Assembly (NCBI GenBank): GCA_019114845.1
Contig: DXEU01000023.1
Span: forward strand, 1 to 36,336
Origin: Candidatus Lachnoclostridium stercoripullorum
GTDB taxonomy: Bacteria > Bacillota > Clostridia > Lachnospirales > Lachnospiraceae
Direction of reading: 5' to 3'
Length of the DNA stretch: 36,336 nucleotides
The translations under genes and the position numbers were made by a program. Position 1 is the stretch's first letter. Each line of letters opens with the position of its first letter. Below the pieces are notes generated by a model. That model searched no databases and was not told the origin of the DNA. It saw only the letters and a list, made by a program, of their open reading frames with translations. Shown here piece by piece: positions 1 through 35,028 of this stretch.

Positions 1-194
1 TGGAAAAACTCCTCCTTGTGTAAAAACTGTCGCCATTTTGGGCTTTTGTAATACAGTATAGAGCGGAACTGCGGGTTTTTCAAGAAAATTACCGCAAATG
101 TGCAGAAATATATCCAAGGTTTTCCTTGCCGTAAAGGGAAATATTATGTATGATAGGGGGAGAAAAAATGAAGCGGAATGGAGGTAAAATCCGT

Positions 195-1382
195 ATGAAT
201 TTTAAAGATGCAGCAGAGAAAAATGAACCGTGGATCATCGAGCAGAGAAGATTTTTCCACCAATGCCCGGAGCTCTCCGAGCAGGAGAAAAATACTACCC
301 TGGAGATCGGAAAGCGCCTGGAGGAGATGGGACTTGAGCCCCACTATTACGAGGGATTTACAGGCCTGACGGCGGATATCAGGGGAGGAAAGGCCGGGGC
401 GGGCACGAAGACGGTGGCCCTCCGCGCCGACATCGACGCTCTTCCCGTGGAGGAGCGCACAGGGCTTGCGTTCTGCAGCAAAAACCAGGGCGTGATGCAC
501 GCCTGCGGCCACGACTGCCACATTTCCATGCTCTTAGGCGGAGCGAAGATGCTGGTGGAGCACAAGGAGGAGCTTGCGGGCACCGTGCGGCTGCTGTTCC
601 AGCCGGCGGAGGAGGTGGCCGTGGGGGCGAAATATATGATCGCCCACGGCGCCTTAGACGGTGTGGATGCCATCTACGGCGCCCACATTTGGGGCGGCTT
701 TGAGGCTCCCTACCTGAACTTTGAGTCAGGTCCCCGCATGGCCAGCTGCGACAAATTCACCATCGAGGTGGAGGGACTCTCCGCCCACGGCTCCGCTCCC
801 CACGCGGGGGTGGACGCCCTGACCACGGCGGTTCACATTATCTCTGAGGCCCAGGAGATCGTTTCCAGATACAACGATCCCTTAAATCCCCTGGTGGTAA
901 CCTTCGGCACCATCGCCGGCGGCCAGCGCTGGAATATCATCGCCAACAAGGTGGTGATGGAGGGAACGGTGCGCACCCTGTCCGCCGAGATGAGGGAGAA
1001 GACGGAGAAGATCCTGAGAAATATTGTGGAGCACGTGACGGCCATCCACGGGGCAAAGGGAACGGTGACGGTGGAGTACCTCACCAGCCCGGTGATCAAC
1101 AGCCACGAGGATCTGAACAAGATCGCCCAGGATGCGGCGGTGAAGCTGTACGGGGAGGGCTGCTTGAAGCATCTGGAGAAGATGATGGGAAGCGAGGATT
1201 TCGCCTTCTTTATGGATGAGGTGCCCGGGGTTTACGGCTTCCTGGGAAGCTGCGATCCGAAGCTGGGCTACACCGCCTCCAACCACAACGACTGCTACAC
1301 GGTGGATGAGGGCCTGTTGAAGAGAGGGGCGGCCATGTACGCCCAGTTTGCCTTCGACTATCTGGCGGCAAAGGCGGAGTGA
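195..1382 (+). CDS. M20 family amidohydrolase / metallopeptidase (M20D-like)
   Basis: ORF 150..1382. Motifs ALRADIDALPVEE, GVMHACGHDCH, LFQPAEE, MMGSEDFAFF. GGAGG about 10 nt before ATG 195, and the paralog also starts MNF(K/R). ATG 168 is a possible alternative start. Confidence 0.93.
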   Translation: MNFKDAAEKNEPWIIEQRRFFHQCPELSEQEKNTTLEIGKRLEEMGLEPHYYEGFTGLTADIRGGKAGAGTKTVALRADIDALPVEERTGLAFCSKNQGVMHACGHDCHISMLLGGAKMLVEHKEELAGTVRLLFQPAEEVAVGAKYMIAHGALDGVDAIYGAHIWGGFEAPYLNFESGPRMASCDKFTIEVEGLSAHGSAPHAGVDALTTAVHIISEAQEIVSRYNDPLNPLVVTFGTIAGGQRWNIIANKVVMEGTVRTLSAEMREKTEKILRNIVEHVTAIHGAKGTVTVEYLTSPVINSHEDLNKIAQDAAVKLYGEGCLKHLEKMMGSEDFAFFMDEVPGVYGFLGSCDPKLGYTASNHNDCYTVDEGLLKRGAAMYAQFAFDYLAAKAE

Positions 1383-1393
1383 GAGGGCACTCG

Positions 1394-2209
1394 ATGAAGA
1401 GTCGTTCTGTATTAACCGTGATAAAGGGGATGATCGTCGGGGGGACAATGCTGGTGCCGGGGGTCAGCGGCGGGTCCATGGCCATGATTCTGGGGATCTA
1501 CGACAAGCTGGTGTCCTCCGTCAGCTCGTTTGCGAAGCATAAGCGGGAGAGCCTTATATTTCTCGGGCAGTTCAGCCTGGGAGGAGGTCTGGGGATGCTC
1601 TTATTTGCCAGGCCGATTCTGGGGCTCATCGAGCGATTTCCCATGCCCATGCTGTACTTTTTCCTGGGGGCTGTGGCGGGGGGCGTGCCCCTGATTCTCA
1701 GGGAGGCCAAGGTGACCTCCTTCTCCTTCAGGGAGCCGGCATGGCTGGCTCTGGGCCTTCTGGCGGTCTTTGGGATCTCCTGCCTGCCGGAGGGGCTGTT
1801 CGCCGCGGAGATGGCGGGGGCAGCGGGATTTCTGTTCCTGATGGCGGCTGGGATTGCGGCGGCTGCCGCCCTGGTGCTGCCGGGAATCAGTGTGTCCTAT
1901 CTGTTTTTGGTTTTGGGAATCTATGACGAGCTGATGCGCTCCATCAGCACCCTGCGGCTCTCCTTCCTGGTGCCCCTGGCGCTGGGACTGCTGCTGGGGG
2001 TGGTTTTGACCACCCGGGTGCTGGAGACGGCCATGAACCGCCATCCGCAGCCCACCTACCTGATGATTCTGGGGTTCGTGTTCGGCTCCATGGCGGAGGT
2101 GTTCCCGGGGATTCCCTCGGGGACGGAGCTTCTGGTGTGCCTGGCGGCTCTGGCAGCCGGCTTTGGGGTGATCCGCCTGGTCACCGCCAGTGAAGGGAAC
2201 GAAAAATAA
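1394..2209 (+). CDS. DUF368 / PopT-family membrane protein (predicted undecaprenyl-phosphate translocase)
   Basis: N-terminal VIKGMIVGGTMLVPGVSGGSMAMILGIYDKL and internal ALVLPGISVSYLFLVLGIYDEL are typical of DUF368. Multi-TM. Start is 12 nt after the M20 stop. Confidence 0.88.
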   Translation: MKSRSVLTVIKGMIVGGTMLVPGVSGGSMAMILGIYDKLVSSVSSFAKHKRESLIFLGQFSLGGGLGMLLFARPILGLIERFPMPMLYFFLGAVAGGVPLILREAKVTSFSFREPAWLALGLLAVFGISCLPEGLFAAEMAGAAGFLFLMAAGIAAAAALVLPGISVSYLFLVLGIYDELMRSISTLRLSFLVPLALGLLLGVVLTTRVLETAMNRHPQPTYLMILGFVFGSMAEVFPGIPSGTELLVCLAALAAGFGVIRLVTASEGNEK

Positions 2210-2211
2210 TT

Positions 2212-2268
2212 CGCGATGCCGTATCGCGCAAAAGGAGGCGTACCGCCAATATGGGGTGCGCCTCCTTG
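2212..2268. terminator. Small hairpin plus GC-rich terminator-like hairpin between convergent genes
   Basis: CGCGAT/ATCGCG (2212-2228), then AAGGAGGCG...TGCGCCTCCTT stem. Confidence 0.7.
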
Positions 2269-2271
2269 CTG

Positions 2272-2301
2272 TGACAGCTATATTTTTGACAGCTATATTT
2301 T
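2272..2301. repeat. Perfect 15-bp tandem duplication
   Basis: TGACAGCTATATTTT x2 (2272-2286, 2287-2301). Confidence 0.95.
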
Positions 2302-2312
2302 GATGGATCGAT

Positions 2313-3491
2313 TTACTCGTTCAGATAGTCCATGGCGTACTGAGCGTACACTGCGGATGCGCCGGGAAGGGCGTCCTCATCCACGTTGAAGCGGCCGGAG
2401 TGGTTGGGCTCGCAGCAGCCCTTCTCCGCGTTGCCGGTTCCCACGTTGATGAACAGGGAGTCCGCCACCTTGTCCATCATGAAGGAGTAGTCCTCGCCTC
2501 CCATGCTGGCCGGCACGTGGGCCAGGCCCTCTTCGCCGAAGAGTTTTTTCACCGTCGCCTGCCCGCGGAGCGTCGGGGCATCGGGGTTGTAGCAGGGCAT
2601 GGTGACGGCGTCGTGCTTCTCCACCACCAGCTGGCAGCGGTAGGCGTCGGCGACGCTCTTTACCACCCGCTCCATGGATGCGGGAACCGCGCGGAAGATG
2701 TCCGGATCGTAGCAGCGGACGGTGCCCTCCAGGGTCGCCTCGGCGGCGATGACGTTGAAGCGGGTGCCCGCCTCGATCTTGCCGATGGTGATGACCAGGG
2801 GCTGGTCGGCGGGGAACTCGCGGCTCACCACGTGCTGCAGGTCGAGGGCGGCGGCACAGGCGGCCAGTCCGGCGTCAACTCCCTGGTGAGGCTGTGCGCC
2901 GTGGCCGGGCTTGCCGATGAAGCGGTACTTGAACCAGGTGGCGGCGGCCAGTCTCGGGCCTGCCTCCACGGAGAAGGTTCCGGCCTTGATGGAGGGGTTC
3001 ACGTGGGTTCCCATGGTGGCGTCCACGCCGTCCAGGCAGCCGTCCTCGATCATGGCCTTGGCGCCGTAGCCGGTCTCCTCGGCCGGCTGGAACAGCAGGC
3101 GCACCGTGCCGTTAAAATCATCCCGGCAGGCGGTGAGGATCTTGGCAGCTCCCAGCAGGGTGGCCGTGTGGGCGTCGTGGCCGCAGGCGTGCATCATGCC
3201 GTCCACGGTGGATTTGTAGGGGACGTCATTTAACTCCTGAACGCTGAGGGCGTCCATGTCGGCTCTCAGGGCGATGGTCTTTCCGGGGCCCTTGCCCTTG
3301 ATGTCGCACATTACGCCGGTGCCGCTGGAGCAGACCATCTTGGGCTCCAGACCCATCTTCTCAAGCTCCTCGAAGATCCGTTTGCTGGTGTTCACCTCGT
3401 GTTCACTTGCTTCCGGATGGCTGTGAAAATGGCGGCGCATTTCCACGATGTAATCTTTATTTTCCATGGCAAGCTGCATTGTTTTTTCCAT
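2313..3491 (-). CDS. M20 family amidohydrolase (more divergent paralog)
   Basis: ALRADMDALSVQE, MMHACGHDAHTATLLGAAK, LLFQPAEETGYGAKAMIEDG, MGGEDYSFMM. Confidence 0.93.
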   Translation of the reverse strand: MEKTMQLAMENKDYIVEMRRHFHSHPEASEHEVNTSKRIFEELEKMGLEPKMVCSSGTGVMCDIKGKGPGKTIALRADMDALSVQELNDVPYKSTVDGMMHACGHDAHTATLLGAAKILTACRDDFNGTVRLLFQPAEETGYGAKAMIEDGCLDGVDATMGTHVNPSIKAGTFSVEAGPRLAAATWFKYRFIGKPGHGAQPHQGVDAGLAACAAALDLQHVVSREFPADQPLVITIGKIEAGTRFNVIAAEATLEGTVRCYDPDIFRAVPASMERVVKSVADAYRCQLVVEKHDAVTMPCYNPDAPTLRGQATVKKLFGEEGLAHVPASMGGEDYSFMMDKVADSLFINVGTGNAEKGCCEPNHSGRFNVDEDALPGASAVYAQYAMDYLNE

Positions 3492-3623
3492 AGTGCAAAT
3501 TTCTCCTTTCTTTCATACGCTATAGTAATAACGAATTAATGTTGATTATAGGATGTTAGAAAGAGAATTTCAACATAAAGATATAAAAATTTAAGATTCA
3601 TGATATAAAGATTTTATTTTGTA

Positions 3624-3652
3624 TGGACATTTTTCGCCAAAAAAGGTATAAT
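3624..3652 (+). promoter_or_regulatory. Sigma-A type promoter for the transporter gene
   Basis: TGGACA (3624-3629), 17 nt, TATAAT (3647-3652). Confidence 0.75.
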
Positions 3653-3658
3653 GTGCTA

Positions 3659-3828
3659 ATTGAATACTCTGTTAAAGCAATTCTGCTCTCAAATGGCGGC
3701 GGCAAACCCAGCGGGCGGCCATATAAATATAGAGAGGCTGCGGCGTCCGACCCAAGACGGAGGCCACAGAGCGCGCCGGTGAGATCCGGGGCGGTTATTG
3801 GGATATAAAATAAAAGGAGGAAATTCAT
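3659..3828 (+). promoter_or_regulatory. Candidate structured 5' leader RNA of the transporter gene
   Basis: About 170-nt GC-rich leader between promoter and ATG. ATGGC...GCCAT stem; CTG-C-GGC-GTC...GAC-GGAG-GCC-A-CAG hairpin; ACCCA-containing loops complementary to TTGGG near the RBS. Confidence 0.35.
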
Positions 3829-5082
3829 ATGGAACAACTTCAGGCACTCATCATCGCATCGCCGATCGTTGCCATGTTGATCCTGTGCATCGTGTATGCG
3901 CTGGGCGACACCATTGGCACCCTGACGAAAGCATGGATTCCGTCCGTATTTGTGGTAGCAGTCCTGTTCCTTCTGGGATACTGGACCTTCTTCCCGAAGG
4001 ACATCGTGACGCTGGCAGGTTTTGGCGCTCCCCTGGGAGGCACCCTGGCCATCATGATCTGCATTACCCACATGGGTACATCCATCAGCCTGAACGAGCT
4101 GAAAAAGCAGTGGAAGATCATCGTAGTCTGCCTGGCCGGTCTGGCCGGCATGGTGGCTGCATGTATGATCATCTGCCCGATTTTTGTTGACTTTAACTAC
4201 ATCGTGTCCGGTCTTCCGCCTCTGACCGGAGGCATCGTGGCTGCGACCATGATGCAGGAGGCAGCCCAGAACCTGGGCCTGGAGAAGGCGGCTGTGCTGG
4301 CCATCTGCATGTACGTGTGCCAGGGCTTTGCCGGATATCCCCTCACAGCTGTCATGCTGAAGAGGGAGGGCCGCAACCTGCTCAAGGACTACAGAAGCGG
4401 CAAGGTGAAGAAGGTTGCCAAGGCCGGGGAGATCGATGAGGTGAACGGCAAGTTTGCTGTGGAGGAGAAGAAGAAAAAGAAACTCTTCCCGGAGATCCCC
4501 AATAAATATTACTCCACCGCTGTGTCCCTGACCACCATCATGATCGTCGCCCTGCTGTCCAACCTGATCAGCACCTGGACCGGCACCTTCATGGGCGTGT
4601 ACGCCATCAACCAGGCGGTGATCGCCCTGGTCCTGGGCATCGCGGCCACTGAGCTGGGCTTCCTGCGCCCCAACGTGCTGAAGGAGAACGGCTGCTTCAA
4701 CTTCCTGATGTTCGTGCTGATGATGTACGTGTTCGGCGGACTGAACAGCGCAACCCCCGAGCTGCTGCTGGAGATCCTGGGACCGCTGGTATTTATCATT
4801 GTGGTCGGCGTCGCCGGCATGTGCGTCTGCTCCTTCATCGTGGGCAAGATCTTAAAGGTCAGCCCCTACATGGCAATCGCCACCAGCCTGACGGCCCTGT
4901 ACGGCTTCCCGCCCAACTATGTTCTGACGGATGAGGCCTCCAAGGCGCTGGCTGAGAACGACGACGAAAAAGAATACTTAATGGATAATATGCTTCCGCA
5001 GATGATCGTGGGCGGATTCGTGACGGTTACCATCACCTCCGTGATCATCGCCAGCATCTTTATCCCGCTGCTCCGGGCATAA
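3829..5082 (+). CDS. Uncharacterised multi-TM secondary transporter (possibly GltS/2HCT-like or BART-like fold)
   Basis: 417 aa with about 10-11 hydrophobic segments, two hydrophobic halves and a central charged loop (KKVAKAGEIDEVNGKFAVEEKKKKK). RBS AAAGGAGG before ATG. Family assignment is tentative. Confidence 0.85.
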   Translation: MEQLQALIIASPIVAMLILCIVYALGDTIGTLTKAWIPSVFVVAVLFLLGYWTFFPKDIVTLAGFGAPLGGTLAIMICITHMGTSISLNELKKQWKIIVVCLAGLAGMVAACMIICPIFVDFNYIVSGLPPLTGGIVAATMMQEAAQNLGLEKAAVLAICMYVCQGFAGYPLTAVMLKREGRNLLKDYRSGKVKKVAKAGEIDEVNGKFAVEEKKKKKLFPEIPNKYYSTAVSLTTIMIVALLSNLISTWTGTFMGVYAINQAVIALVLGIAATELGFLRPNVLKENGCFNFLMFVLMMYVFGGLNSATPELLLEILGPLVFIIVVGVAGMCVCSFIVGKILKVSPYMAIATSLTALYGFPPNYVLTDEASKALAENDDEKEYLMDNMLPQMIVGGFVTVTITSVIIASIFIPLLRA

Positions 5083-5135
5083 GAGCATTTTGCAAATATC
5101 TTGGGAAACATATGCCGGAGACGCAGAGAAGAGAG

Positions 5136-5174
5136 ACACCCTGCCAGAAGGAAACTTGCCGGCGGGGTGTTTTC
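5136..5174 (+). terminator. Intrinsic terminator of the transporter gene
   Basis: ACACCCTGCC...GGCGGGGTGT hairpin followed by TTTTCTGT. Confidence 0.8.
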
Positions 5175-5185
5175 TGTATTATAAT
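5156..5185 (+). promoter_or_regulatory. Promoter for the downstream M20 gene, overlapping the terminator
   Basis: TTGCCG (5156-5161), 18 nt, TATAAT (5180-5185). Confidence 0.55.
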
Positions 5186-5245
5186 GAATGCAGTTTGAGA
5201 GGGCGGCGCACGGGCGCGGCCCGGATCGGAAAGGATGGGATATTC

Positions 5246-6436
5246 ATGAATTTTAGAGAAATGGCAGAGCAGAATGAGCAGTGGATCATCGAGCAGAGAA
5301 GATTTTTCCATCAGTACCCGGAACTCTCCTTTGAGGAGCACAACACCACCAAGGAGATCGGGAAACGCCTGGAGGAGATGGGGTTAAAGCCCCACTGCTA
5401 CGAGGATTATCCCGGACTCTGGGTGATGATCGAGGGGGGAAAGGCGGAGGCCGGAGCGAAGACGGTGGCGCTCAGGGCCGACATCGACGCCCTGCCGGTG
5501 GAGGAGCACACGGGTTTGGAATTCTGCAGCAGAAATCCGGGGGTGATGCACGCCTGCGGCCACGACTGCCACATCGCCATGCTGCTGGGCGGCGTGAAAA
5601 TGCTGCTGGAGAAGAGAGAGGAACTGAGGGGAAATGTGAAGGTGATCTTCCAGGCGGCGGAGGAGACTTGCTACGGAGCCAGGTATTACATCGAGCACGG
5701 CTTTCTGGACGATGTGGACGCCATCTACGGGGCCCACATCTGGGGGGATTTTGACGCGCCGTACATGAGCTTTGAGGCTGGGCCCAGGATGGCCAGCGCC
5801 GACAATTTCACCATCGAGGTGGAGGGAATTTCCGCCCACGGCTCCGCGCCTCACCAGGGGGTGGACGCCATTCTGGCGGCGGCCCACATCATCACAGAGG
5901 TTCAGTCCATCGTCTCCAGGATGAATGACCCGTTAAATCCCCTGGTGGTGACCATCGGGGAGATCCACGGGGGGCAGAGATTCAACATCATCGCCAACAA
6001 GGTGGTGATGGAGGGCACCACCCGCACCCACTCCGCAGAGATGAGGGGGAAGACGGAGGGTCTGCTGCGGAATATCGTGGAGCATGTGGCGGAGTCCTTC
6101 GGGGCCAAGGCCACTCTGAAATTTGACTACTACCCCGGCCCGGTGGTGAACAGCCATGAGGATTTAAACCGCATCGCCGAGGGGGCGGCGGTGAAGATGT
6201 ACGGAGAGGGCTGCCTGAAGCATCTGGAGAAGATGATGGGGAGCGAGGATTTCGCCATGTACATGGAGAAGGTTCCCGGCGTGTTCGGCTTTATCGGGAG
6301 CCGGAATGAGAAGCTGGGCTATACGGCCAAAAACCACAACGACCACTATACCGTGGACGAGAGCGTGCTCAAGATGGGCGCCGCCATGTACGCCCAGTTC
6401 GCCTACGACTATCTGGAGGAGAAGGCGGAGGGCTGA
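5246..6436 (+). CDS. M20 family amidohydrolase, close paralog of 195..1382
   Basis: Starts MNFREMAEQNEQWIIEQRRFFHQYPELS. Long identical blocks with the first M20 gene (GEGCLKHLEKMMGSEDFA, NPLVVT, IIANKVVMEGT). ORF extends 5' to 5090 but homology starts at 5246. Confidence 0.93.
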   Translation: MNFREMAEQNEQWIIEQRRFFHQYPELSFEEHNTTKEIGKRLEEMGLKPHCYEDYPGLWVMIEGGKAEAGAKTVALRADIDALPVEEHTGLEFCSRNPGVMHACGHDCHIAMLLGGVKMLLEKREELRGNVKVIFQAAEETCYGARYYIEHGFLDDVDAIYGAHIWGDFDAPYMSFEAGPRMASADNFTIEVEGISAHGSAPHQGVDAILAAAHIITEVQSIVSRMNDPLNPLVVTIGEIHGGQRFNIIANKVVMEGTTRTHSAEMRGKTEGLLRNIVEHVAESFGAKATLKFDYYPGPVVNSHEDLNRIAEGAAVKMYGEGCLKHLEKMMGSEDFAMYMEKVPGVFGFIGSRNEKLGYTAKNHNDHYTVDESVLKMGAAMYAQFAYDYLEEKAEG

Positions 6437-12919: not shown

Positions 12920-13564
12920 TCAGTGGAGTTCTCCAGCGCTCTCGCCGCCGTCCGCCCGGTCGATGGCCACCGCCTCGATGGCGTACTCCAGGGATTTGGC
13001 GATGGTCTCCAGGGGCATGGACGGGGTGGTGTTTGCCTTGTCGATCACCTGGCCGCAGGCGTAGGGCACATGGATAAATCCGGCCCGGATGCCGGGGTAG
13101 CGCTTCTCGCACATGTAGAGGACGTTGTACATGATGCTGTTGCACACGTAGGTGCCGGCGGTGAAGGAGAGGTAGCAGGGAAGACCCGCCTCCTTCACGT
13201 GCTGCACCATGGCCTTCACCGGCAGGGTGGCAAAGTAGGCCGCCGGACCGTCCGCCTGCAGCGGCTCGTCCAAGGGCTGCTCCCCGTTGTTGTCGGGAAT
13301 GCGGGCGTCCACGAAGTTGATGGCCACCTTCTCCACGCTGATGCTGGCGCGGCCTCCGGCCTGGCCGACGCAGATGACCACGTCGGGCTGATATTTTCGG
13401 ATGCCCTCCTCCACGGCCGGGCCGCTCAGGGAGAACACGGTGGGAATCTCCAGCTTGAAGATCTCCGCCCCGCCGATGACGTCGGGGAGCAGCTTGACGG
13501 CCTCGTAGGCCGGGTTGACGCTCTCTCCGCCGAAGGGATCAAAACCTGTCACTAAAATTTTCAT
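12920..13564 (-). CDS. pcp: Pyroglutamyl-peptidase I
   Basis: MKILVTGFDPFGGESVNPAYEAVK, VICVGQAGGR, AGTYVCNSIMYNVLY. Confidence 0.95.
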   Translation of the reverse strand: MKILVTGFDPFGGESVNPAYEAVKLLPDVIGGAEIFKLEIPTVFSLSGPAVEEGIRKYQPDVVICVGQAGGRASISVEKVAINFVDARIPDNNGEQPLDEPLQADGPAAYFATLPVKAMVQHVKEAGLPCYLSFTAGTYVCNSIMYNVLYMCEKRYPGIRAGFIHVPYACGQVIDKANTTPSMPLETIAKSLEYAIEAVAIDRADGGESAGELH

Positions 13565-13619
13565 AAGTACCTGTCTCCTTTCTCTGAAATAAAGAGTTCT
13601 CTAAAACAATAAAGGCTAA

Positions 13620-14564
13620 TCAATGGAGAACAATCATATATACGATCTGCACCGCCAGCATGATCACCGCCACCGGGGCCTGTTTTTTGATCACCCCGAA
13701 CCGGTCCTTCATGTCCAGCACCGCCACGGGCACAATGTTGAAGTTGGCCGCCATGGGGGTGAGGAGCGTGCCGCAGTAGCCGCAGGTGAGGGCCACCATG
13801 CCCACCACCACCGGGTCAGCCCCGTAGGCCAGGACACAGGGGGCGCCCACGCCGATGGTCATCACCGTGATGGCCCCGAAGGCGTTGCCCATGATGGCGG
13901 TGAAGAGGGCCATCCCCACGGCGAAGACGATGATGCCCACCGTCACATTTCCCTCGGGCACGACGGCGGATACCAGGCGGCCGATGATGTCGCCCACGCC
14001 GGCTGCGGTGAAGACGCCGCCCAGAGCGCCCAGGAGCTGGGGCAGCATGCACAGGGGGCCCATCATGGAGAGAAGCCGCTCAGAGTCCTTCAGGAAGGTG
14101 ACCGGCTTATTGTCCCTGGAATAGCACATCAGCAGGATGACGGAGAGAAGCACGCCCAGAGCCACCCCCACCAGGGCGCTGATGTCCGTGAACAGGGCGA
14201 AGAGCAGGGAGAACACTCCCATGGTCAGGGCAGGGAGAAAGATCTTCATGCCGATTTTCTGGAACTGGCTGTGGGTGTATTCTTTTGCGGGGGCGTCCTG
14301 CCGCCCCTTGTTCACCCGGCGGAAGATGGCCGGAAGGATCATAAGGACCACCAGGGCGCCGGATACGCGGGCGGGGAGCCAGTGGCCGAAGGCACACACC
14401 ACGCCGAAGGAGGTCCAGAAGACGAAGGTTCCGAAGCGGGAGGGATTTTCCCGGTCGAACAGGTTCTTGAGGCCCGCGTAGATGGTGATGAGGCCGATGA
14501 GGATGTAGACGCACTCCAGCAGTTTATCGCTCAGGGAGATGGCCGGGTCTGCAAAAAACATCAT
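13620..14564 (-). CDS. DUF979 family membrane protein, predicted 5-oxoproline transporter subunit
   Basis: Multi-TM; GNAFGAITVMTIGVGAPCVLAYGADPVVVGMVALTCGYCGTLLTPMAANFNIVPVAVLDMKD. Sits between DUF969 and pcp. Confidence 0.85.
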   Translation of the reverse strand: MMFFADPAISLSDKLLECVYILIGLITIYAGLKNLFDRENPSRFGTFVFWTSFGVVCAFGHWLPARVSGALVVLMILPAIFRRVNKGRQDAPAKEYTHSQFQKIGMKIFLPALTMGVFSLLFALFTDISALVGVALGVLLSVILLMCYSRDNKPVTFLKDSERLLSMMGPLCMLPQLLGALGGVFTAAGVGDIIGRLVSAVVPEGNVTVGIIVFAVGMALFTAIMGNAFGAITVMTIGVGAPCVLAYGADPVVVGMVALTCGYCGTLLTPMAANFNIVPVAVLDMKDRFGVIKKQAPVAVIMLAVQIVYMIVLH

Positions 14565-15289
14565 GAGCGGTCCGCCCCCTTTCCGGTGGATTTGGATGAA
14601 ATTTTACCGGATTTCCCGGATTTTAAGTATTTAGCCCTCAGCTTCCGGTCCATGAGGGTGAAGTAGATGCAGGCGATCACCAGGGCGATGAGAGCGACGG
14701 GGATCTCAATCCGGGCCAGGTCGATGAGCTCCACCTCGTAGCCCAGACCGCTCAGGGTGGTCTGCACCAGGATGCCGCCGGATCCGCCCACGAAGAGCAC
14801 CTGGAAGAAGAACCAGGCGATGTTGTCCATGGCGGAAGTCATGCCCTTGATCTCCTCCACATAGTCCTCGTCGGGGGTCTCGTCCTCCTCCGAGATGGCG
14901 CCCTCGGCCATGGGCATGATCACCGGGCGCACAAAGCCGGTGACGCCGCCGAAGTTGACGTTGAAGGCCCCGAAGAAGGACCGCATCACGCCGTAGATGC
15001 ACACCAGCTTGCCCGCGGTGACGTTTTTAAATTTGCGGATGAAGGCGGCGGCGGCTTCCCGCAGGCCGTTTCTCTCCAGGGTTCCGGTTACAAACAGAAT
15101 GATGATGAAAATTGCCATGCTCCGGTTGGAGACAAAGCTGCTTCCCAGGGTGTCCAGAAGTCCGCTGATGCCCAGACCTCCGGCCAGCGCTGTGGTGACA
15201 GCGGCCAGGAAGATGATGAGAATGGAATCCAGCTTCAGGGCAAAGCCCACGATGACGATGAGGATTCCGATGAGCCTAATGTATTCCAT
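14561..15289 (-). CDS. DUF969 family membrane protein, predicted 5-oxoproline transporter subunit
   Basis: MEYIRLIGILIVIVGFALKLDSI...RSFFGAFNVNFGGVTGFVRPVIMPMAEGA. 4-nt overlap with DUF979. Confidence 0.85.
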   Translation of the reverse strand: MEYIRLIGILIVIVGFALKLDSILIIFLAAVTTALAGGLGISGLLDTLGSSFVSNRSMAIFIIILFVTGTLERNGLREAAAAFIRKFKNVTAGKLVCIYGVMRSFFGAFNVNFGGVTGFVRPVIMPMAEGAISEEDETPDEDYVEEIKGMTSAMDNIAWFFFQVLFVGGSGGILVQTTLSGLGYEVELIDLARIEIPVALIALVIACIYFTLMDRKLRAKYLKSGKSGKISSKSTGKGADRS

Positions 15290-15514
15290 AGTCAGGCTTC
15301 CTCCTTTGTGGTAAATTTTGCTTCCGCGCAGCACGGATGGTAAAAGTGTGGCGGAAACTTCTAATAATTATACAATAGGACAGGGGATTCCGGCAACTGG
15401 CAAAGGCGGAAAGGGCGCTTCAACCTGCTTTACGGCGGAGGCTTTTTATGCTATACTAAGGGGTAAATTGGATTTTTGTGCGAAAAAATACATTTACATT
15501 TCAGTGAGGTGTAT

Positions 15515-26833: not shown

Positions 26834-27439
26834 CATCCGTTTGATCACCTTCAGCCGGGTAAATTCCTCCCTCTCCTTCTCCTCCAGGGCGCCGGTGATG
26901 TCCTTCGTCAGCTCCTGGTACATGGGGATGGTGATATTTTTCAGGGCATTTGCCCGCTTCTGTGTCTTTTTGATGTTGTTTGCCAGCCGGTAGGCGGAAT
27001 TTTCCACCATGGACAGGCGGATGGTCAGCTCCTTGACCTTTTCAAATCTGGCTCTGGCCTCGTCCAGGGACTGCCGGGTGCTGTAGTAGGCGTAGGTCAG
27101 GTTCAGGGGAGCGTCCTCGTGCTGCACCAGGGGGATCTCCGTCCCCATGATGCTCCTGGCCTTGATGCGGATGCCGTTTTCCACAGGGACGGAGGAGGCG
27201 ATGTCCTGGACAAAGCTGATGCCCAGCTCGATGTTCGCCCGCTGGAGCGCCTTGTAGGCCTCTGTGAAGGTGGCGTCGATCTCCGACTGGATGTCCCTGG
27301 CCTGGTCGATGAGCTCCATCAGCTCCCGCAGAAGGATGTTTCTCTTCTTGTCCATCAGGCCGTAGCCCTGGGTGGCCAGGGCCAGGGAGTTTTTGGCCAG
27401 AATCAGATTTCCCTTTGTGGGGAATGTGTTCGGATTCAT
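26816..27439 (-). CDS. atpD: V/A-type ATP synthase subunit D
   Basis: [58 protein letters not shown]. Confidence 0.95.
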
Positions 27440-28833
27440 GCAGTCGCCTCCTCAGAAGCGGGGCGGTAGAACTCGTCCAGAATCTTGGTGTCGATCCGGT
27501 CAAGTTCCTCTCTCGGCAGCATGCCGAGAAGCTCCCAGCCGATGTTTAAGGTGTCGATGATGGTGCGGTTCTCGTGGGTGTCCTGGCCGATGAAGCGTTT
27601 CTCGAACGCCCGTCCGAACTCCAGGTACTTCTTGTCCAGGGGGGAGAGCTCGTCTTCTCCGATGACGGAGGCCAGGGCTCTGGCGTCCCCCACCTTGGCG
27701 TAGCAGGAGAAGAGCTGGTTGGCCACGTCCTGGTGGTCCTTCCTGGTGTATCCCTCGCCGATGCCGTCCTTCATCAGACGGGACAGGCTGGGCAGCACGT
27801 TGATGGGCGGATATACGGACTGTCCCTGCAGGGTGCGGTCCAGAACGATCTGCCCCTCGGTGATGTAGCCGGTCAGGTCGGGGATGGGGTGGGTGATATC
27901 GTCGTTGGGCATGGTCAGAATGGGAATCTGGGTCACAGAGCCGTTCTTGCCCGCCACGATGCCGGCCCGCTCGTAGATGGTGGCCAGCTCGCTGTAGAGG
28001 TAGCCGGGGTAGCCCTTTCTGGAGGGAATCTCCCCCTTGGAGGAGGAGACCTCACGCATGGCTTCGGCAAAGGAGGTCATGTCCGTCAGAATCACCAGGA
28101 TGTGCATCTCCTTCTCAAAAGCTAGGTACTCGGCCAGAGTCAGGGCCACCTTGGGGGTGATCAGACGCTCCACCACCGGGTCGTTGGCCAGGTTGATGAA
28201 CATGGCCACATGGTCGGACACGCCGCTCTCCTCAAAGGTGCGGCGGAAAAAATCGGCCACGTCGTATTTCACGCCCATGGCGGCGAAGACGATGGCGAAT
28301 TTCTCATCGGAGTCCTCTCCCAGGGACGCCTGCTGGACGATCTGGGCCGCCAGCTGGTCGTGGGGAAGGCCGTTTCCGGAGAAAATCGGCAGCTTCTGTC
28401 CCCGGATCAGGGTGGTCAGGCCGTCGATGGCGGAGATGCCGGTGCGGATATAGTTTCTGGGGTACTCCCGGGTCACCGGGTTTAGGGGCTTCCCGTTCAC
28501 ATCCAGGGTCATATCCGGCTCAATGTCCCCCAGGCCGTCGATGGGTGCGCCGATGCCGTTGAAGGTGCGGCCCAGCATCTCCTCGGAGACGCCGATCTCC
28601 ATGGGATGGCCGGTGAGGCGGGTGTGGGTGTTGCGCAGGGCCATGCCGTCGGTGCCCTCGTAGACCTGGATCACCGCTCGGTCGTCGTAGATCTCAATGA
28701 TGCGGCCGAGCCGGGGCTCCTTGGAGCCCTTGACGGTCATCTCCACGATCTCGTCGTAGGCGGCTCCCCGGACGCCTTCCAGCACGGCAAGAGGGCCGTT
28801 TATGTTGCTCAATCCTAAATATTCCACTGCCAT
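27436..28833 (-). CDS. atpB: V/A-type ATP synthase subunit B
   Basis: [69 protein letters not shown]. Confidence 0.96.
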
Positions 28834-28848
28834 GGCAGGCACCTCCTT

Positions 28849-30615
28849 TTATGCGTTCCGCTCTACGACGTCGTCGTAGAACTTGTCGATCATCTGCTTG
28901 TATTCTTCAAACATCTCCGGCTTGCTGTTGGGGATGTCGTATTTCATGGCGATCACCTTGTCGAAAATGTGGTCCTCCTTGAGCACCGACATGGGCATGC
29001 CCATGGAGATCAGCGCCCGGGACTTCTGGTAGAGGTAGAGGATCACGTCCATCATCAGAAACTGCTTGGACATGGGGACGCAGGTGTCGTCGGGGTGGAA
29101 AGCGTTCTGCTGCAGGAATCCCACCCGGATCACCCGGGCGATCTCCAGAGTCAGCTTCTGGTCGTCCGGCAGCACGTCGCTTCCGATCAGCTTCACGATC
29201 TCCAACAGGCTGCTCTCCTGGGTGAGGATCAGCATCAGCTGGTTGCGGTAGTCCACAAATTTCTTGTCTACATGGTCCACATACCAGGGGGCCAGGTCCG
29301 TCAGGTACTCGGAGTAGCTGGTCAGCCACTGGATGGCCGGGAAATGTCTGGCGTAGGACAGGTTCTTGTCCAGGCCCCAGAAGCAGCGGACAAACCGCTT
29401 GGTGTTCATGGTCACCGGCTCGGAGAAGTCTCCTCCCTGGGGGGATACGGCTCCGATGATGGACACAGAGCCCTCCGTGCCGTTTAAGTTCTGCATCATG
29501 CCGGCCCGCTCGTAGAAGGCGGACAGGCGGGAGGCCAGGTAGGCCGGGAAGCCCTCCTCGGCGGGCATCTCCTCCAGGCGGCCGGACAGCTCCCTCAAAG
29601 CCTCGGCCCAGCGGGAGGTGGAGTCGGCCATGATGGCCACATGGTAGCCCATATCCCGGTAGTACTCCGCCAGGGTCAGGCCAGAGTAGAGGCTGGCCTC
29701 ACGGGCGGCCACGGGCATGTTGGAGGTGTTGGCGATCAGGGTGGTCCGATCCATCAGGGGATTGCCGGACTTGGGGTCGATCAGCTCAGAGAACTCCTCC
29801 AGCACCTGGGTCATCTCGTTGCCGCGCTCGCCGCAGCCGATGTAGATGATGATGTCGGCGTCGGACCACTTGGCGATCTGGTGCTGGGTCATGGTCTTCC
29901 CCGTGCCGAATCCGCCGGGGATGGCTGCCGTGCCGCCCTTGGCCAGGGGGAACATGGTGTCCAGGATTCTCTGGCCGGTGATCAGGGGCACGGAGGGCGG
30001 AAACCGCTTCGCCGTCGGGCGGGGAACGCGGATGGGCCATTTCTGGGTCATGGTGATGTCCTTCTCAGTGCCGTCCGGCAGCTGAAGGGTCAGCAGCCGG
30101 TCGCTGATGGTGTACTCCCCGTCGGCGACCACGTCCAAGACGTAGCCCTCCATATCGGGGGGAATCATCACCTTGTGGGTGATGGCGGGAGTCTCCGGGA
30201 CCTCGGCGATGATGGCGCCGGGGTAGAGGCGGTCCCCCTTTTTCACAGTGATGTGGGTCTTCCACAGCTTTTTGGTGTCCAGGGAGTCCACGTTTACGCC
30301 CCTGGAAATGTATGGGCCGCCGGACTTGGCGATCTCCGCCAGGGGGCGCTCAATGCCGTCGAAAATGTTGTTTAAGATGCCGGGGGCCAGGGTGGCGGAC
30401 ACGGGAGCGCCCGTCCCCTCCACAATCTCTCCCGGCTTGATGCCGGTGGTCTCCTCGTACACCTGGATGGTGGTGGAGTCCGAGGAGAGGCCGATGACCT
30501 CGCCCACCAGATGGTCGCCTCCCACGGTGACCATTTCATGCATCTCGAAGCCGGCGTCGCCCTTCACGTGCACGATGGGGCCGTTGATGCCGTAAATGAT
30601 GCCTGTCTTAGTCAT
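28849..30615 (-). CDS. atpA: V/A-type ATP synthase catalytic subunit A
   Basis: GGTAAIPGGFGTGKTMTQHQIAKWSDADIIIYIGCGERGNEM; MADSTSRWAEALRE. Confidence 0.97.
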   Translation of the reverse strand: MTKTGIIYGINGPIVHVKGDAGFEMHEMVTVGGDHLVGEVIGLSSDSTTIQVYEETTGIKPGEIVEGTGAPVSATLAPGILNNIFDGIERPLAEIAKSGGPYISRGVNVDSLDTKKLWKTHITVKKGDRLYPGAIIAEVPETPAITHKVMIPPDMEGYVLDVVADGEYTISDRLLTLQLPDGTEKDITMTQKWPIRVPRPTAKRFPPSVPLITGQRILDTMFPLAKGGTAAIPGGFGTGKTMTQHQIAKWSDADIIIYIGCGERGNEMTQVLEEFSELIDPKSGNPLMDRTTLIANTSNMPVAAREASLYSGLTLAEYYRDMGYHVAIMADSTSRWAEALRELSGRLEEMPAEEGFPAYLASRLSAFYERAGMMQNLNGTEGSVSIIGAVSPQGGDFSEPVTMNTKRFVRCFWGLDKNLSYARHFPAIQWLTSYSEYLTDLAPWYVDHVDKKFVDYRNQLMLILTQESSLLEIVKLIGSDVLPDDQKLTLEIARVIRVGFLQQNAFHPDDTCVPMSKQFLMMDVILYLYQKSRALISMGMPMSVLKEDHIFDKVIAMKYDIPNSKPEMFEEYKQMIDKFYDDVVERNA

Positions 30616-31213
30616 GGCCCTGTCCTCCTTTTTCTGTCAGATGGAATGATACGTGGCGCTTCGCCTCCTGGATGAGGGAGTCGAAGGAGTTGTCGATCAA
30701 AATGTTCTTGGAGGGGATCACCGCCCGCATGCCTCCGCCGAAAGAGTACTGGCTGAGGCGGATATCGGCGCCGCCGCCCATGTGGAGGGCGATCCGCTGC
30801 AGCTTGTCCTCGTCCACCGGGTCCAGGTAGACCATGAGGGCCTCCTCGCCGGCCACCTCCTTCGCATGGCGGATCTGCCGCTCCAGCATCTGCTGGTAGG
30901 CGGAGGTCTCCATGAAGTTCACCAGCTTGTTTTTCAGCTCCACGAAGAGCATGTCTTTGAGCTCCTCCTGCTTTCTGCTCAGGTCTCGGCGGATCTTCAG
31001 CTGCTCCACAGCCAGCTGCTTGTTGATGTCCCGCTTGATTTTATCCTTCTCCATCTGGATCTGCATGTCGGCCCGCCTTTTGGCGTCCGCTTTGTAGTCT
31101 TCCAAATCCTTGTCCAGGGCGGCGGAGCAGTCGTCCAGCATTTTGGCGCTGCGTGCCCTGGAATCCTCCATGCAGAAATCCAGGAAATGCTGTAATTTTT
31201 CGTCGGTTGTCAA
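30608..31213 (-). CDS. atpE: V/A-type ATP synthase subunit E
   Basis: Position in operon; N-terminal coiled coil and C-terminal GGMRAVIPSKNILIDNSFDSLIQEAK. Confidence 0.88.
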   Translation of the reverse strand: MTTDEKLQHFLDFCMEDSRARSAKMLDDCSAALDKDLEDYKADAKRRADMQIQMEKDKIKRDINKQLAVEQLKIRRDLSRKQEELKDMLFVELKNKLVNFMETSAYQQMLERQIRHAKEVAGEEALMVYLDPVDEDKLQRIALHMGGGADIRLSQYSFGGGMRAVIPSKNILIDNSFDSLIQEAKRHVSFHLTEKGGQGHD

Positions 31214-31231
31214 ATCCTTACACCTGCCTTT

Positions 31232-31540
31232 TTATAATTTCAGGCCGATGGCCTCGTTTACATAGTCCGTGATAAAGTTGGGCTTGCGGCCGGTGCCGTG
31301 GCGGTCGGGGATTTCCACAAACAGAGGCACTTTGTAATCCAGCTTCAGCCGGTTTACCACCTCGGGGAAATCTCTGCCGAACTTTTCCGTCAGCAGAACG
31401 ATCCCGATCTCCTTATCGGCCAGCACTCTATCCAGGGCAGCCTGCAGTTCATCCTTCTCGTGGACAACCACGCCCTCCACGCCGGCCAATCGCATGCCGG
31501 TGTAGGTGTCGGTGTTGTCGCTGATGAGAAACATTTTCAT
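31232..31540 (-). CDS. atpF: V/A-type ATP synthase subunit F
   Basis: 102 aa; MKMFLISDNTDTYTGMRLAGVEGVVVHEKDE...IGIVLLTEKF. Confidence 0.92.
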   Translation of the reverse strand: MKMFLISDNTDTYTGMRLAGVEGVVVHEKDELQAALDRVLADKEIGIVLLTEKFGRDFPEVVNRLKLDYKVPLFVEIPDRHGTGRKPNFITDYVNEAIGLKL

Positions 31541-31541
31541 A

Positions 31542-31976
31542 TTAAAGCTGTCCCAAGATCATGAAGGAGATGATCAGTCCGTACAGGCACACACCTTCGG
31601 CAAGTCCAACGAAGATGAGGGATTTACCAAGAATGGAAGAGTCCTCGCTGATGGCGCCCAGAGCGGCGGATGCAGCTGCGGAGACGGCGATGCCGCCGCC
31701 CACGCAGGAGAGGCCGGTGGAGAGAGCTGCGGCCAGGTAGCCGAAGCCGGTGGCGGAGGAGGAAACTGCGGAAGCGGCCTCCTCGGCGGCGTAGGCATTT
31801 CCTGTGAACATCAGGCCGGCGGATACGGCCATAACTCCGAAGAACAGTACCATGTTGCAGGCGAGGGCCTTCTTGTAGCGCCCCTTGGATTTCTCGCCCA
31901 TGGCGAATGCGCCGAAGGGAACGGCGATGCTCAAGATCAGTGCGGCAGCCAGTGTGATTTTAACTAATAAAGACAT
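31542..31976 (-). CDS. V/A-type ATP synthase subunit K (membrane rotor)
   Basis: Four TM segments; GLSCVGGGIAVSAAASAALGAISED and FVGLAEGVCLYGLIISFMIL. Confidence 0.93.
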   Translation of the reverse strand: MSLLVKITLAAALILSIAVPFGAFAMGEKSKGRYKKALACNMVLFFGVMAVSAGLMFTGNAYAAEEAASAVSSSATGFGYLAAALSTGLSCVGGGIAVSAAASAALGAISEDSSILGKSLIFVGLAEGVCLYGLIISFMILGQL

Positions 31977-32029
31977 AATGTATATTCTCCTCTCTGATGA
32001 AACATTTATGGTGATAGGGCGCGCAGCCG

Positions 32030-33967
32030 TCAGGCTCCGGCCTTTCCGTAAGGTTTGAATTCGCGGCCGCTTCCGCGGTAGAAACGGCTGAACAGCTCAT
32101 AGTATTCCAGACGAAGCACCTGGATGCCAACCACCAGGCCTTCCAGCCCGCAGACGAAGAGGTTGCCCAGGACAACCACAAGCCAGTTGGGGCTTCCCGC
32201 CTCCGCGCCGGCCAGCATCAGGACCACCTCCATCATGGCGGCGTGGCTGACGGCGAAGGCTCCCACACGGACGAAGGACAGGGTGTTGGAGAAATAGCTG
32301 AGCAGGACCTCAAACAGCTCGAAGAAGCCCTGGATCACAAACATGGCCTTGCCCCCGGGAGCGGCTGTCCTGGCCTTCTTTTCGAGGAAGGCGGTGAGGG
32401 GTTCCTTGAAAAACATGAGAAGCAGGGGAACTCCGAACATTACCGCCAGCACGGCGCTTCCCGGCAGCACATGGCCGGTCATGAACAGAACCACGGCCAG
32501 AACCAGGCTTCCGTAGAAGACGAGGCCGGCCACGCCGTTGGTGTCAAACCAGAGCTTTTCCGCGTCCTTCTCCCGCAGGCTGTTGATGATGTTGAGCACC
32601 ATGGTCAGCAGGATGATCCCCATGCCGATGGAGATGGACACCACAAACACCGTGTTCAGCTTGCCGATGAAGGGCAGGGTGGTCATGGCGTCAGCCGGGC
32701 GCAGCCACAGGGGCGTGATCACGTCCTCGAAGCCGAACACGCTGCCGAACAGCAGGCCGAAGATGGTGGAGAAGAAGCCGCAGCAGGAGATGATGGCCGC
32801 CAGGCTCATCTTCTTCAACCGGTACAGCAGAAAGCCGCCGGCCAGCAGGCATAAGCCCTGTCCCGCATCCCCGAACATGAAGCCGAAGAGGAAGGAGTAG
32901 GTGATGCCGATGAGGATGGTGGGATCCAGCTCCTCGTAGGAGGGAAGCCCGTACATCCGGATAAACAGCTCGAACGGCCGGAAAATCCCCGGATTTTTCA
33001 GCTTGGTCGGGGGCTTGCTGATGACGTTCCCGTGGTTTTCCTCCACGATGAGGAAGACGTCCGGGTCGTTTTTGATCTCCTCCCGGAAGGCCGCCGCCTG
33101 GTTCTTGGTCATCCACCCGCACAGGATGTAGAAGGTGGAGGACTTGTGGGTGGTGGAGGCGGCCATCTTGCGGACGTTGAAGTTCTTGTCGTAGCGCTCC
33201 AGCCGGGCCGCAGCCGCCAGGATGGCGTCCCTGTTCTTCTCCAGGCATTCCCTGCGCTTGTTTTCCAGGTCAGCAATCCGGTTCTTCATGTCCCCGATCT
33301 TCTGATCCAGCGCCTCCCCCGCCTCCAGGGGCGTCCCCTCGTACTCGTCGGGAATCAGGTAGCGCTCAAAGTGCATGGACGCGTAGATGGCGTCGATCTT
33401 TTTGGAGATGGACTCCGGCACAAAGTAGACGATCCACACGTACTCCTCGTCCTCGCTGCACTTGTAGTAGACCGTGTCGATGGTGTCGTACACGTAGTCG
33501 GTAAATTTCTGGAAATACTCTTTGGGAATCCGCCCAAACCGGAAGCGGATGTATTTAAAATGCAGGATCGTGCTCAGATTGTAATTCAGGTCTGTAAACG
33601 GCGAAATCCTGGCTCTCGACTCCTCGAGTGACTCCACCCGCTGCTCCAACGTGTTTTTTTCCTGGTCCCAGGCTTTTAAATCAGAAGAAATCCTGGTCAC
33701 AGTGTCCATGGCCTCGTCCAGAGAAACCTCGGGAAGAGAGCCGGTCTCCGGGCTGCCGGCCTTCAAAGGCTCAGCCAGGCTGGCGGCCTCCCCGCAGAGC
33801 TCCCGATAAGGGTTGACCTCTGTGATGGGCCTTAAATCCTTCACGGACCTCAGCTCCGACAGCGCATTTTCCAGCTGGATTTCATATCGGGAGAGATACT
33901 TGTCCACCATCCGGTCGATGTCGGTCTTGGGTCCTGTGATGCTGACAAACTGCATCTTTTCAATCAC
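32030..33967 (-). CDS. V/A-type ATP synthase subunit I (stator a-subunit)
   Basis: MIEKMQFVSITGPKTDIDRMVDKYL; TYSFLFGFMFGDAGQGL; FFELFEVLLSYFSNTLSFVRVGAFAVSHAAMM. Confidence 0.95.
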   Translation of the reverse strand: MIEKMQFVSITGPKTDIDRMVDKYLSRYEIQLENALSELRSVKDLRPITEVNPYRELCGEAASLAEPLKAGSPETGSLPEVSLDEAMDTVTRISSDLKAWDQEKNTLEQRVESLEESRARISPFTDLNYNLSTILHFKYIRFRFGRIPKEYFQKFTDYVYDTIDTVYYKCSEDEEYVWIVYFVPESISKKIDAIYASMHFERYLIPDEYEGTPLEAGEALDQKIGDMKNRIADLENKRRECLEKNRDAILAAAARLERYDKNFNVRKMAASTTHKSSTFYILCGWMTKNQAAAFREEIKNDPDVFLIVEENHGNVISKPPTKLKNPGIFRPFELFIRMYGLPSYEELDPTILIGITYSFLFGFMFGDAGQGLCLLAGGFLLYRLKKMSLAAIISCCGFFSTIFGLLFGSVFGFEDVITPLWLRPADAMTTLPFIGKLNTVFVVSISIGMGIILLTMVLNIINSLREKDAEKLWFDTNGVAGLVFYGSLVLAVVLFMTGHVLPGSAVLAVMFGVPLLLMFFKEPLTAFLEKKARTAAPGGKAMFVIQGFFELFEVLLSYFSNTLSFVRVGAFAVSHAAMMEVVLMLAGAEAGSPNWLVVVLGNLFVCGLEGLVVGIQVLRLEYYELFSRFYRGSGREFKPYGKAGA

Positions 33968-35028
33968 TTTCCGTTGCCCCCTTTGCTGTCTTTGATAATA
34001 CAGGAAAGAATTTCACTGGAATCCATGCCGTACCGGATGCACTCGATGGCGGTGATCAGGCGGCTGATTTCCAGGTTCTTAAAATAGAAATAAGAGTTGA
34101 GGATCGCCGCAGAGTAGGGATTCTTCCGCGCAGTCACTGCGTAGATCTGGTTCATCACCTGCTCGTAGAGCGCCTCCAGATCCGGCTCGATCCTCAGATC
34201 GCTCCGGGAGAGAGATCCGTAGCGGGTCCCGCTCAGAACATTGAAAAATTCGTCCAGGCTTCCCGCCTCCGCGAGGCGGGTGACTTCCTCCTTTTTCAGC
34301 CGGTAATTTACCGGGATCAGAAGCGTGTAGATATCGGAGGAGGACAGATGGTAATACTTTTTTGACCGGTAGATCCACTGAATGTTCAGGAGATCCAGCC
34401 GGGAGCCGAAGCACCGGGTGAGGGTTTCCCGCTCGCTCTTGTCCGTGAACTTGTCCTTGATTCTCCAAGCCCATTTGAAATGGTAGAGATCCAGCTGGAT
34501 TTCGTAGTCGAAGAGCGAAGCGCTCTCCAGATTGTCCAGCCGGGAAAAGAGCTCATAGTAGGGAGTTCCCTTCAGCGCCGCGGTCAGGTCGGCCACGGTG
34601 GCGCAGGCCGAGAGCTTTGCCACATCCAGCCGGGAGTGCCGGGAGAAAAAGTCCTGGAACAGCTCCAGCTTTACGGGGCGTTTTTCCGGTCCGGCGATGC
34701 TTCGCAGACATCTCTTCAACAGGGCGATCTCAAAGCCGGAAAAATACAGGCTCAGAAATTTCCGGGGTCCCGGTCCGGCAAAGCGGTACAGCTTCTCAAA
34801 ATCCCGGTAGCGGGAGAGGAGCAGCAGTTTTTCCAGCTCGGAGCGATGGGTGGAGCTGTCGGCGGAGGCGAGAACCTCCCCGTAGGCCGGCTGGGATTTG
34901 ATAAATTCCAGCGCGTCCCCCACGGTGGCGAGGGAGGCCAGCTCTTCATACTGCCGCTCTGTGAAGAAGCGGCTTTCCATGGCCCGGACTTTGGTGGTTA
35001 GACCGCTGTAGGTCAGGAGATTTCCCAT
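33964..35028 (-). CDS. atpC: V/A-type ATP synthase subunit C
   Basis: TYSGLTTKVRAMESRFFTERQYEELASLATVGDALEFI; operon position. Confidence 0.9.
   Translation of the reverse strand: MGNLLTYSGLTTKVRAMESRFFTERQYEELASLATVGDALEFIKSQPAYGEVLASADSSTHRSELEKLLLLSRYRDFEKLYRFAGPGPRKFLSLYFSGFEIALLKRCLRSIAGPEKRPVKLELFQDFFSRHSRLDVAKLSACATVADLTAALKGTPYYELFSRLDNLESASLFDYEIQLDLYHFKWAWRIKDKFTDKSERETLTRCFGSRLDLLNIQWIYRSKKYYHLSSSDIYTLLIPVNYRLKKEEVTRLAEAGSLDEFFNVLSGTRYGSLSRSDLRIEPDLEALYEQVMNQIYAVTARKNPYSAAILNSYFYFKNLEISRLITAIECIRYGMDSSEILSCIIKDSKGGNGK

Follow-up and report, generated by a model that had tools for sequence, protein, structure and literature searches.

We analysed a window of 36,336 nucleotides from Candidatus Lachnoclostridium stercoripullorum, which is one contig of a 2.4-Mb genome that is 83% complete. 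Its genus relatives include Candidatus Lachnoclostridium pullistercoris and Lachnoclostridium sp. An14, which from their names we take to be poultry-gut Lachnospiraceae. At the start of the window lies an island with the gene order M1 (+), PopT-like gene (+), M2 (-), T (+) and M3 (+), in which the following features were recognised:

195..1382, + strand: M1, M20D amidohydrolase, 395 aa (PF01546/PF07687; TIGR01891, 334 bits; cytoplasmic type)
1379..2209, + strand: DUF368/PopT-like (undecaprenyl-phosphate-translocase-like) membrane protein (PF04018, 137 bits)
2313..3491, - strand: M2, M20D amidohydrolase, 392 aa, divergent from T (TIGR01891, 365 bits)
3545..3573, - strand: promoter-like site for M2, TTGAAA-17-TATAAT (11/12 matches)
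3624..3652, + strand: promoter-like site for T, TGGACA-17-TATAAT (11/12 matches; TATAAT invariant in 8 species)
3679..3821, + strand: putative structured leader RNA of T (covariation, and conservation in eight species)
3829..5082, + strand: T, predicted CPA/AT-fold secondary transporter, 417 aa (AlphaFold2, Foldseek, profile comparison)
5098..5105, + strand: invariant ATCTTGGG just past the T stop codon (conserved in eight genomes)
5137..5175, + strand: intrinsic terminator separating T from M3 (arms covary across the genus; z -3.5 to -6.4)
5156..5185, + strand: promoter-like site for M3, TTGCCG-18-TATAAT (most of the eight genomes have a TATAAT here too)
5246..6436, + strand: M3, M20D amidohydrolase, 396 aa (Pfam and TIGR01891 matches)

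The three M20 genes and the 417-residue membrane protein described by the initial annotation are thus present as open reading frames, and the outer M20 genes are, as it proposed, close paralogues that flank the divergent M20 and T: M1 and M3 share 74% identity, whereas M2 is 41% identical to each of them. Its inventory was incomplete, however, as it omitted the PF04018 gene at 1379-2209, the terminator and promoter-like site between T and M3, and a fourth M20 gene. The last, a close paralogue of M2, lies upstream and divergent in most genus relatives, and the window contig starts at about the position that it occupies there. The PopT-like gene overlaps the stop codon of M1, falls below the cut-off of the NCBIfam PopT equivalog (140 of 400) and adjoins M20 in only a subset of genus members; it is probably a bystander. 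Elsewhere in the window, a pyroglutamyl peptidase gene accompanied by DUF979 and DUF969 (12920-15334) matches a proposed 5-oxoproline transporter (PMC12795558), and a V-type ATPase operon was recognised by eye on the minus strand (27436-35028).

M1, M2 and M3 all match the Peptidase_M20 and M20_dimer domains of Pfam and score 334-365 bits against TIGR01891, for which the cut-off is 153.75. For M1, a start at 195 is favoured over one at 150 because a GGAGG sits just upstream of the former. Five columns (C104, H106, E140, H164 and H364), which correspond to the metal ligands of ILL2-type enzymes, are invariant across ten aligned M20 members. The N-termini of all three enzymes begin directly at the catalytic domain, and as no extra sequence precedes it we take the enzymes to be cytoplasmic. 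With hydrolysis placed in the cytoplasm, the substrate would have to enter the cell. Among solved structures, those closest to the three enzymes are YxeP, ILL2 (a plant IAA-amino-acid hydrolase), an acyl-glutamine aminoacylase and an M20 peptidase whose role is unknown. YxeP/ScmP and AgaA are the known M20D enzymes most similar to this system; YxeP partners an ABC importer (PMC9706529) and not a transporter of the T type.

The initial annotation could not place T in a characterised family, and this judgement stands. No Pfam or NCBIfam family matched T, three homologues from Bacillota and Enterobacterales likewise found no match in Pfam, comparison with PDB sequences returned chance-level matches only, and our literature search found no description of the family; clear orthology to a characterised transporter did not emerge. 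The BART, GltS and 2HCT folds that had been suggested agree with both the structure model and the profile comparisons. An AlphaFold2 model of T (pLDDT 88.6, pTM 0.86, from an alignment of 63 homologues) gave top Foldseek matches that were all CitS, the Na+/citrate symporter of the 2HCT family (PDB 5a1s, 5xat; E about 1e-5, TM 0.5-0.6), followed by the more distant CPA/AT members NhaP, AspT and ASBT; the solved CPA/AT relatives among these fold matches transport citrate, Asp/Ala and bile acids. Profile comparison instead put GltS nearest (96.8% over about 330 columns), ahead of 2HCT (71.5%) and DUF819 (45.6%, whole-family), whereas seven unrelated membrane proteins reached at most 1.4%, with alignment depth differing between the two sets. 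The two halves of T also match each other (87.5% by profile comparison) and correspond in helix pattern. In the model, helices are broken at 133-135 and 358-361, and conserved residues cluster at these breaks (P130/G134/G135 and G359/P361). T thus combines the inverted repeats and the two broken or re-entrant core helices that mark the CPA/AT (BART) superfamily, a plan that corresponds to the CPA-reentrant type (PMC8396727).

Within this superfamily T appears to stand apart from its nearest neighbours. CitS shares the two inverted repeats and the two broken or re-entrant helices, but is only 15-18% identical to T, and the 2HCT model (PF03390) matched neither T nor anything else in its own genome. 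The same was true of the model for the GltS/ESS glutamate:Na+ symporters (PF03616), despite their being the best profile-profile match, and of DUF819 (PF05684), which belongs to the same superfamily. RefSeq names an E. faecalis homologue of T as DUF819, but that protein reaches 21.7 bits against a cut-off of 27. By these families' own models, and on a predicted structure, T is best described as belonging to a separate, unnamed CPA/AT family outside 2HCT, GltS and DUF819. Gene context separates them further: T is found beside amide hydrolases rather than the citrate enzymes of CitS, its conserved partnership with M20 distinguishes it from GltS, and GltS, DUF819 and 2HCT loci, which were shorter than the T loci, held one nearby M20 in 30. 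In Neisseria, a DUF819 gene adjoins an M15 peptidase gene (PMC12671195).

The association of T homologues with M20 genes, on which the initial reading depended, is borne out. We took 98 homologues with neighbourhoods, which are not independent samples, and recorded the nearest annotated hydrolase within 400 bp: this was an M20 in 61 (62%), a TIM-barrel amidohydrolase in 16, an S12 hydrolase in 2 and a gamma-glutamyltransferase in 1. By comparison, M20 accounted for 18 of 671 control genes (2.7%) lying at least three positions away. The one TIM-barrel amidohydrolase that was tested came closest to the Xaa-Pro dipeptidase model, under its cut-off. The count of 61 leaves out two alphaproteobacterial loci whose downstream 'Zn-dependent hydrolase' is an M20 by Pfam (L134) or by annotation (L135); in Alphaproteobacteria the T and M20 genes overlap by 1 bp. 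Among 64 further relatives from GTDB genomes (Bacillota, Enterobacterales and Desulfovibrio), a set that leans to closer kin because its members were retrieved with the window T as query, an M20 lies directly downstream on the same strand in 60, often as T-M20-M20, and directly upstream in three of the other four. Many operons of the Bacillus group and of enterobacteria consist of T, a carbamoylase-type M20 and an M20D. The family is nevertheless patchy, being present in 7 of 120 genomes at the level of the family, 24 of 391 of the class and 23 of 399 of the phylum. Overall, the comparative evidence for pairing of T with M20 is strong.

Most T homologues that lack an M20 carry an unrelated amide hydrolase instead, whereas about a dozen, and also a T paralogue in the same genome (contig C131), have no hydrolase nearby. 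Mapped on the T tree, partner classes require 32 changes, against about 50 with shuffled labels (0 of 200 shuffles as low). Unrelated amide hydrolases thus seem to have replaced one another beside T, and their alternation on the tree points to a shared amide substrate class; the case for T as a carrier of amide-bonded compounds rests mainly on this pattern.

Some individual loci deserve comment. A 76-residue frame resembling the T C-terminus lies between two M20-like genes in genome G096 (L019:6132-6332); it may be a remnant and was left out of the counts. One E. faecalis T homologue is recorded on a 'plasmid' of 747 kb with ribosomal protein genes adjoining T (L137), and two Enterococcus 'phage' records also carry T; all three look like mislabelled chromosomal DNA. 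Near another T-M20 pair, UbiX- and UbiD-like genes were recognised by eye (L056:8775-10819).

In this genus, T also appears to carry its own regulatory leader. The leader measures about 170 nt, and the structured RNA in it ~145 nt. Eight species share an invariant GCTCTC, three hairpins and a loop motif that reads CCGACCCAAGACGG or differs slightly from it; in the window copy the invariant loop lies in CCGACCCAAGACGG at 3747-3760. The motif occurs once per genome, with one extra, more degenerate match elsewhere in genome G000. In an alignment built from sequence only, 81% of cells pair, compared with 36-45% when slid, and 22 cells change on both sides, compared with 11.6 +/- 2.6 in shuffles. 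The evidence for this structure is good, although, coming from eight related sequences, it is short of conclusive. A covariance model of the leader matches once per genome and in this genus only; a search of E. coli DNA gave no match, and Rfam 15 returned nothing over gathering score in the window (best weak match, E 4.2). The element is put forward as a candidate regulatory RNA. Downstream, TCTTGGG (5099-5105, within ATCTTGGG) is the exact complement of CCCAAGA in the leader loop (3751-3757) in all eight genomes. Because a terminator and a promoter-like site intervene, T and M3 are probably not simply co-transcribed in the genus.

AbgT together with AbgAB imports p-aminobenzoyl-glutamate and cleaves it with M20 enzymes, and the same logic of an importer coupled to M20D hydrolysis may apply here; T itself found no match in the AbgT Pfam model and differs in predicted fold. 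We consider it probable that T is a CPA/AT importer of amide-blocked amino acids or dipeptides that works with cytoplasmic amide hydrolases. In this reading T is a secondary transporter from an unnamed family, built on the CPA/AT (BART) elevator fold, and would use an ion gradient to admit small anionic amide-bonded derivatives of amino acids, presumably dipeptides or amino acids that carry an N-acyl or N-carbamoyl group. The neighbouring M20 enzymes would then cleave the amide in the cytoplasm to provide free amino acid for the cell, each paralogue possibly working on a related substrate. Dipeptides seem as likely as N-acyl amino acids, because the partners include dipeptidase-like and gamma-glutamyl enzymes. 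Counting against this reading are the terminator and promoter-like site that lie between T and M3 in this genus, and the T homologues that have no hydrolase close by. Here we infer direction, ion coupling and substrate class; the fold by itself does not fix a direction.

That last point bears on the possibility that T carries a hydrolysis product, either the free acyl acid or the amino acid, outwards or in exchange, with the blocked substrate reaching the cytoplasm by some other path. CPA/AT families do include exchangers and exporters, AspT is among the fold matches, and gene pairing alone does not fix direction. The partners of T (M20D, carbamoylase-type M20, Xaa-Pro dipeptidase-like enzyme and gamma-glutamyltransferase) differ in their products, however, and what their substrates share is the amide bond; uptake of substrate fits this pattern better, and we regard export or exchange of a product as unlikely.

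A narrower specificity, for cysteine-linked compounds such as N-acetylcysteine conjugates or cysteine peptides in sulfur or cysteine salvage, is suggested by some neighbours. Two genus members have a gene for a PatB-type C-S lyase, a PLP enzyme, beside T-M20 (L053:4583-5770, over the TIGR04350 cut-off; L054:4961-6136, by similarity). In Tepidanaerobacter, Sedimentibacter and two MAGs, the T-M20 operon opens with an SDH_alpha gene, whose domain also occurs in L-cysteine desulfidases; such a gene lies directly upstream of T-M20-M20 at L216:2203-3492 and L218:4546-5826. Moreover, M20 enzymes of the same group in B. subtilis are N-acetylcysteine deacetylases (PMC12757645, PMC9706529), and the closest M20 of solved structure is YxeP. 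The neighbouring genes suggest that products in the lineages concerned may be of a cysteine or serine type. Yet SDH_alpha is compatible with serine too, and most T loci, including that of the window, have no sulfur gene nearby, which makes a general cysteine specificity distinctly improbable. Finally, with 24 M20 matches in 2.4 Mb, M20 genes are plentiful enough that their clustering in the window alone is weak evidence, but the pairing with T persists across phyla, in distant copies and in unrelated genomes, and we reject chance clustering around a bystander T as highly implausible.

Import by T followed by amide cleavage thus stays the leading hypothesis, and the earlier proposal that the transporter imports an N-blocked amino acid or small peptide conjugate split by the M20 enzymes is partly supported. 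What gene context and comparison add is that T appears to represent an unnamed family that crosses phyla and is tied to amide hydrolases generally, and that in this genus it seems to be preceded by an orphan leader RNA. A more ambitious reading is that T founds a widespread, as yet unnamed CPA/AT family dedicated to amide-blocked amino acids or dipeptides, placed beside whichever amide hydrolase suits the substrate, with the genus leader as a novel type of RNA that senses the substrate or a product; we offer this tentatively, as an idea with less than even prospects.

M20D enzymes are common orphan hydrolases of gut and soil bacteria, many without a known route for their substrates. If the leader RNA of T is ligand-responsive, it could help to name the substrate, and a family of 'hypothetical proteins' gains a testable role. 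A conserved, portable transporter partner would provide a handle on the diets of M20D enzymes, which may include conjugates of host or drug origin, hippurates and mercapturates among them.
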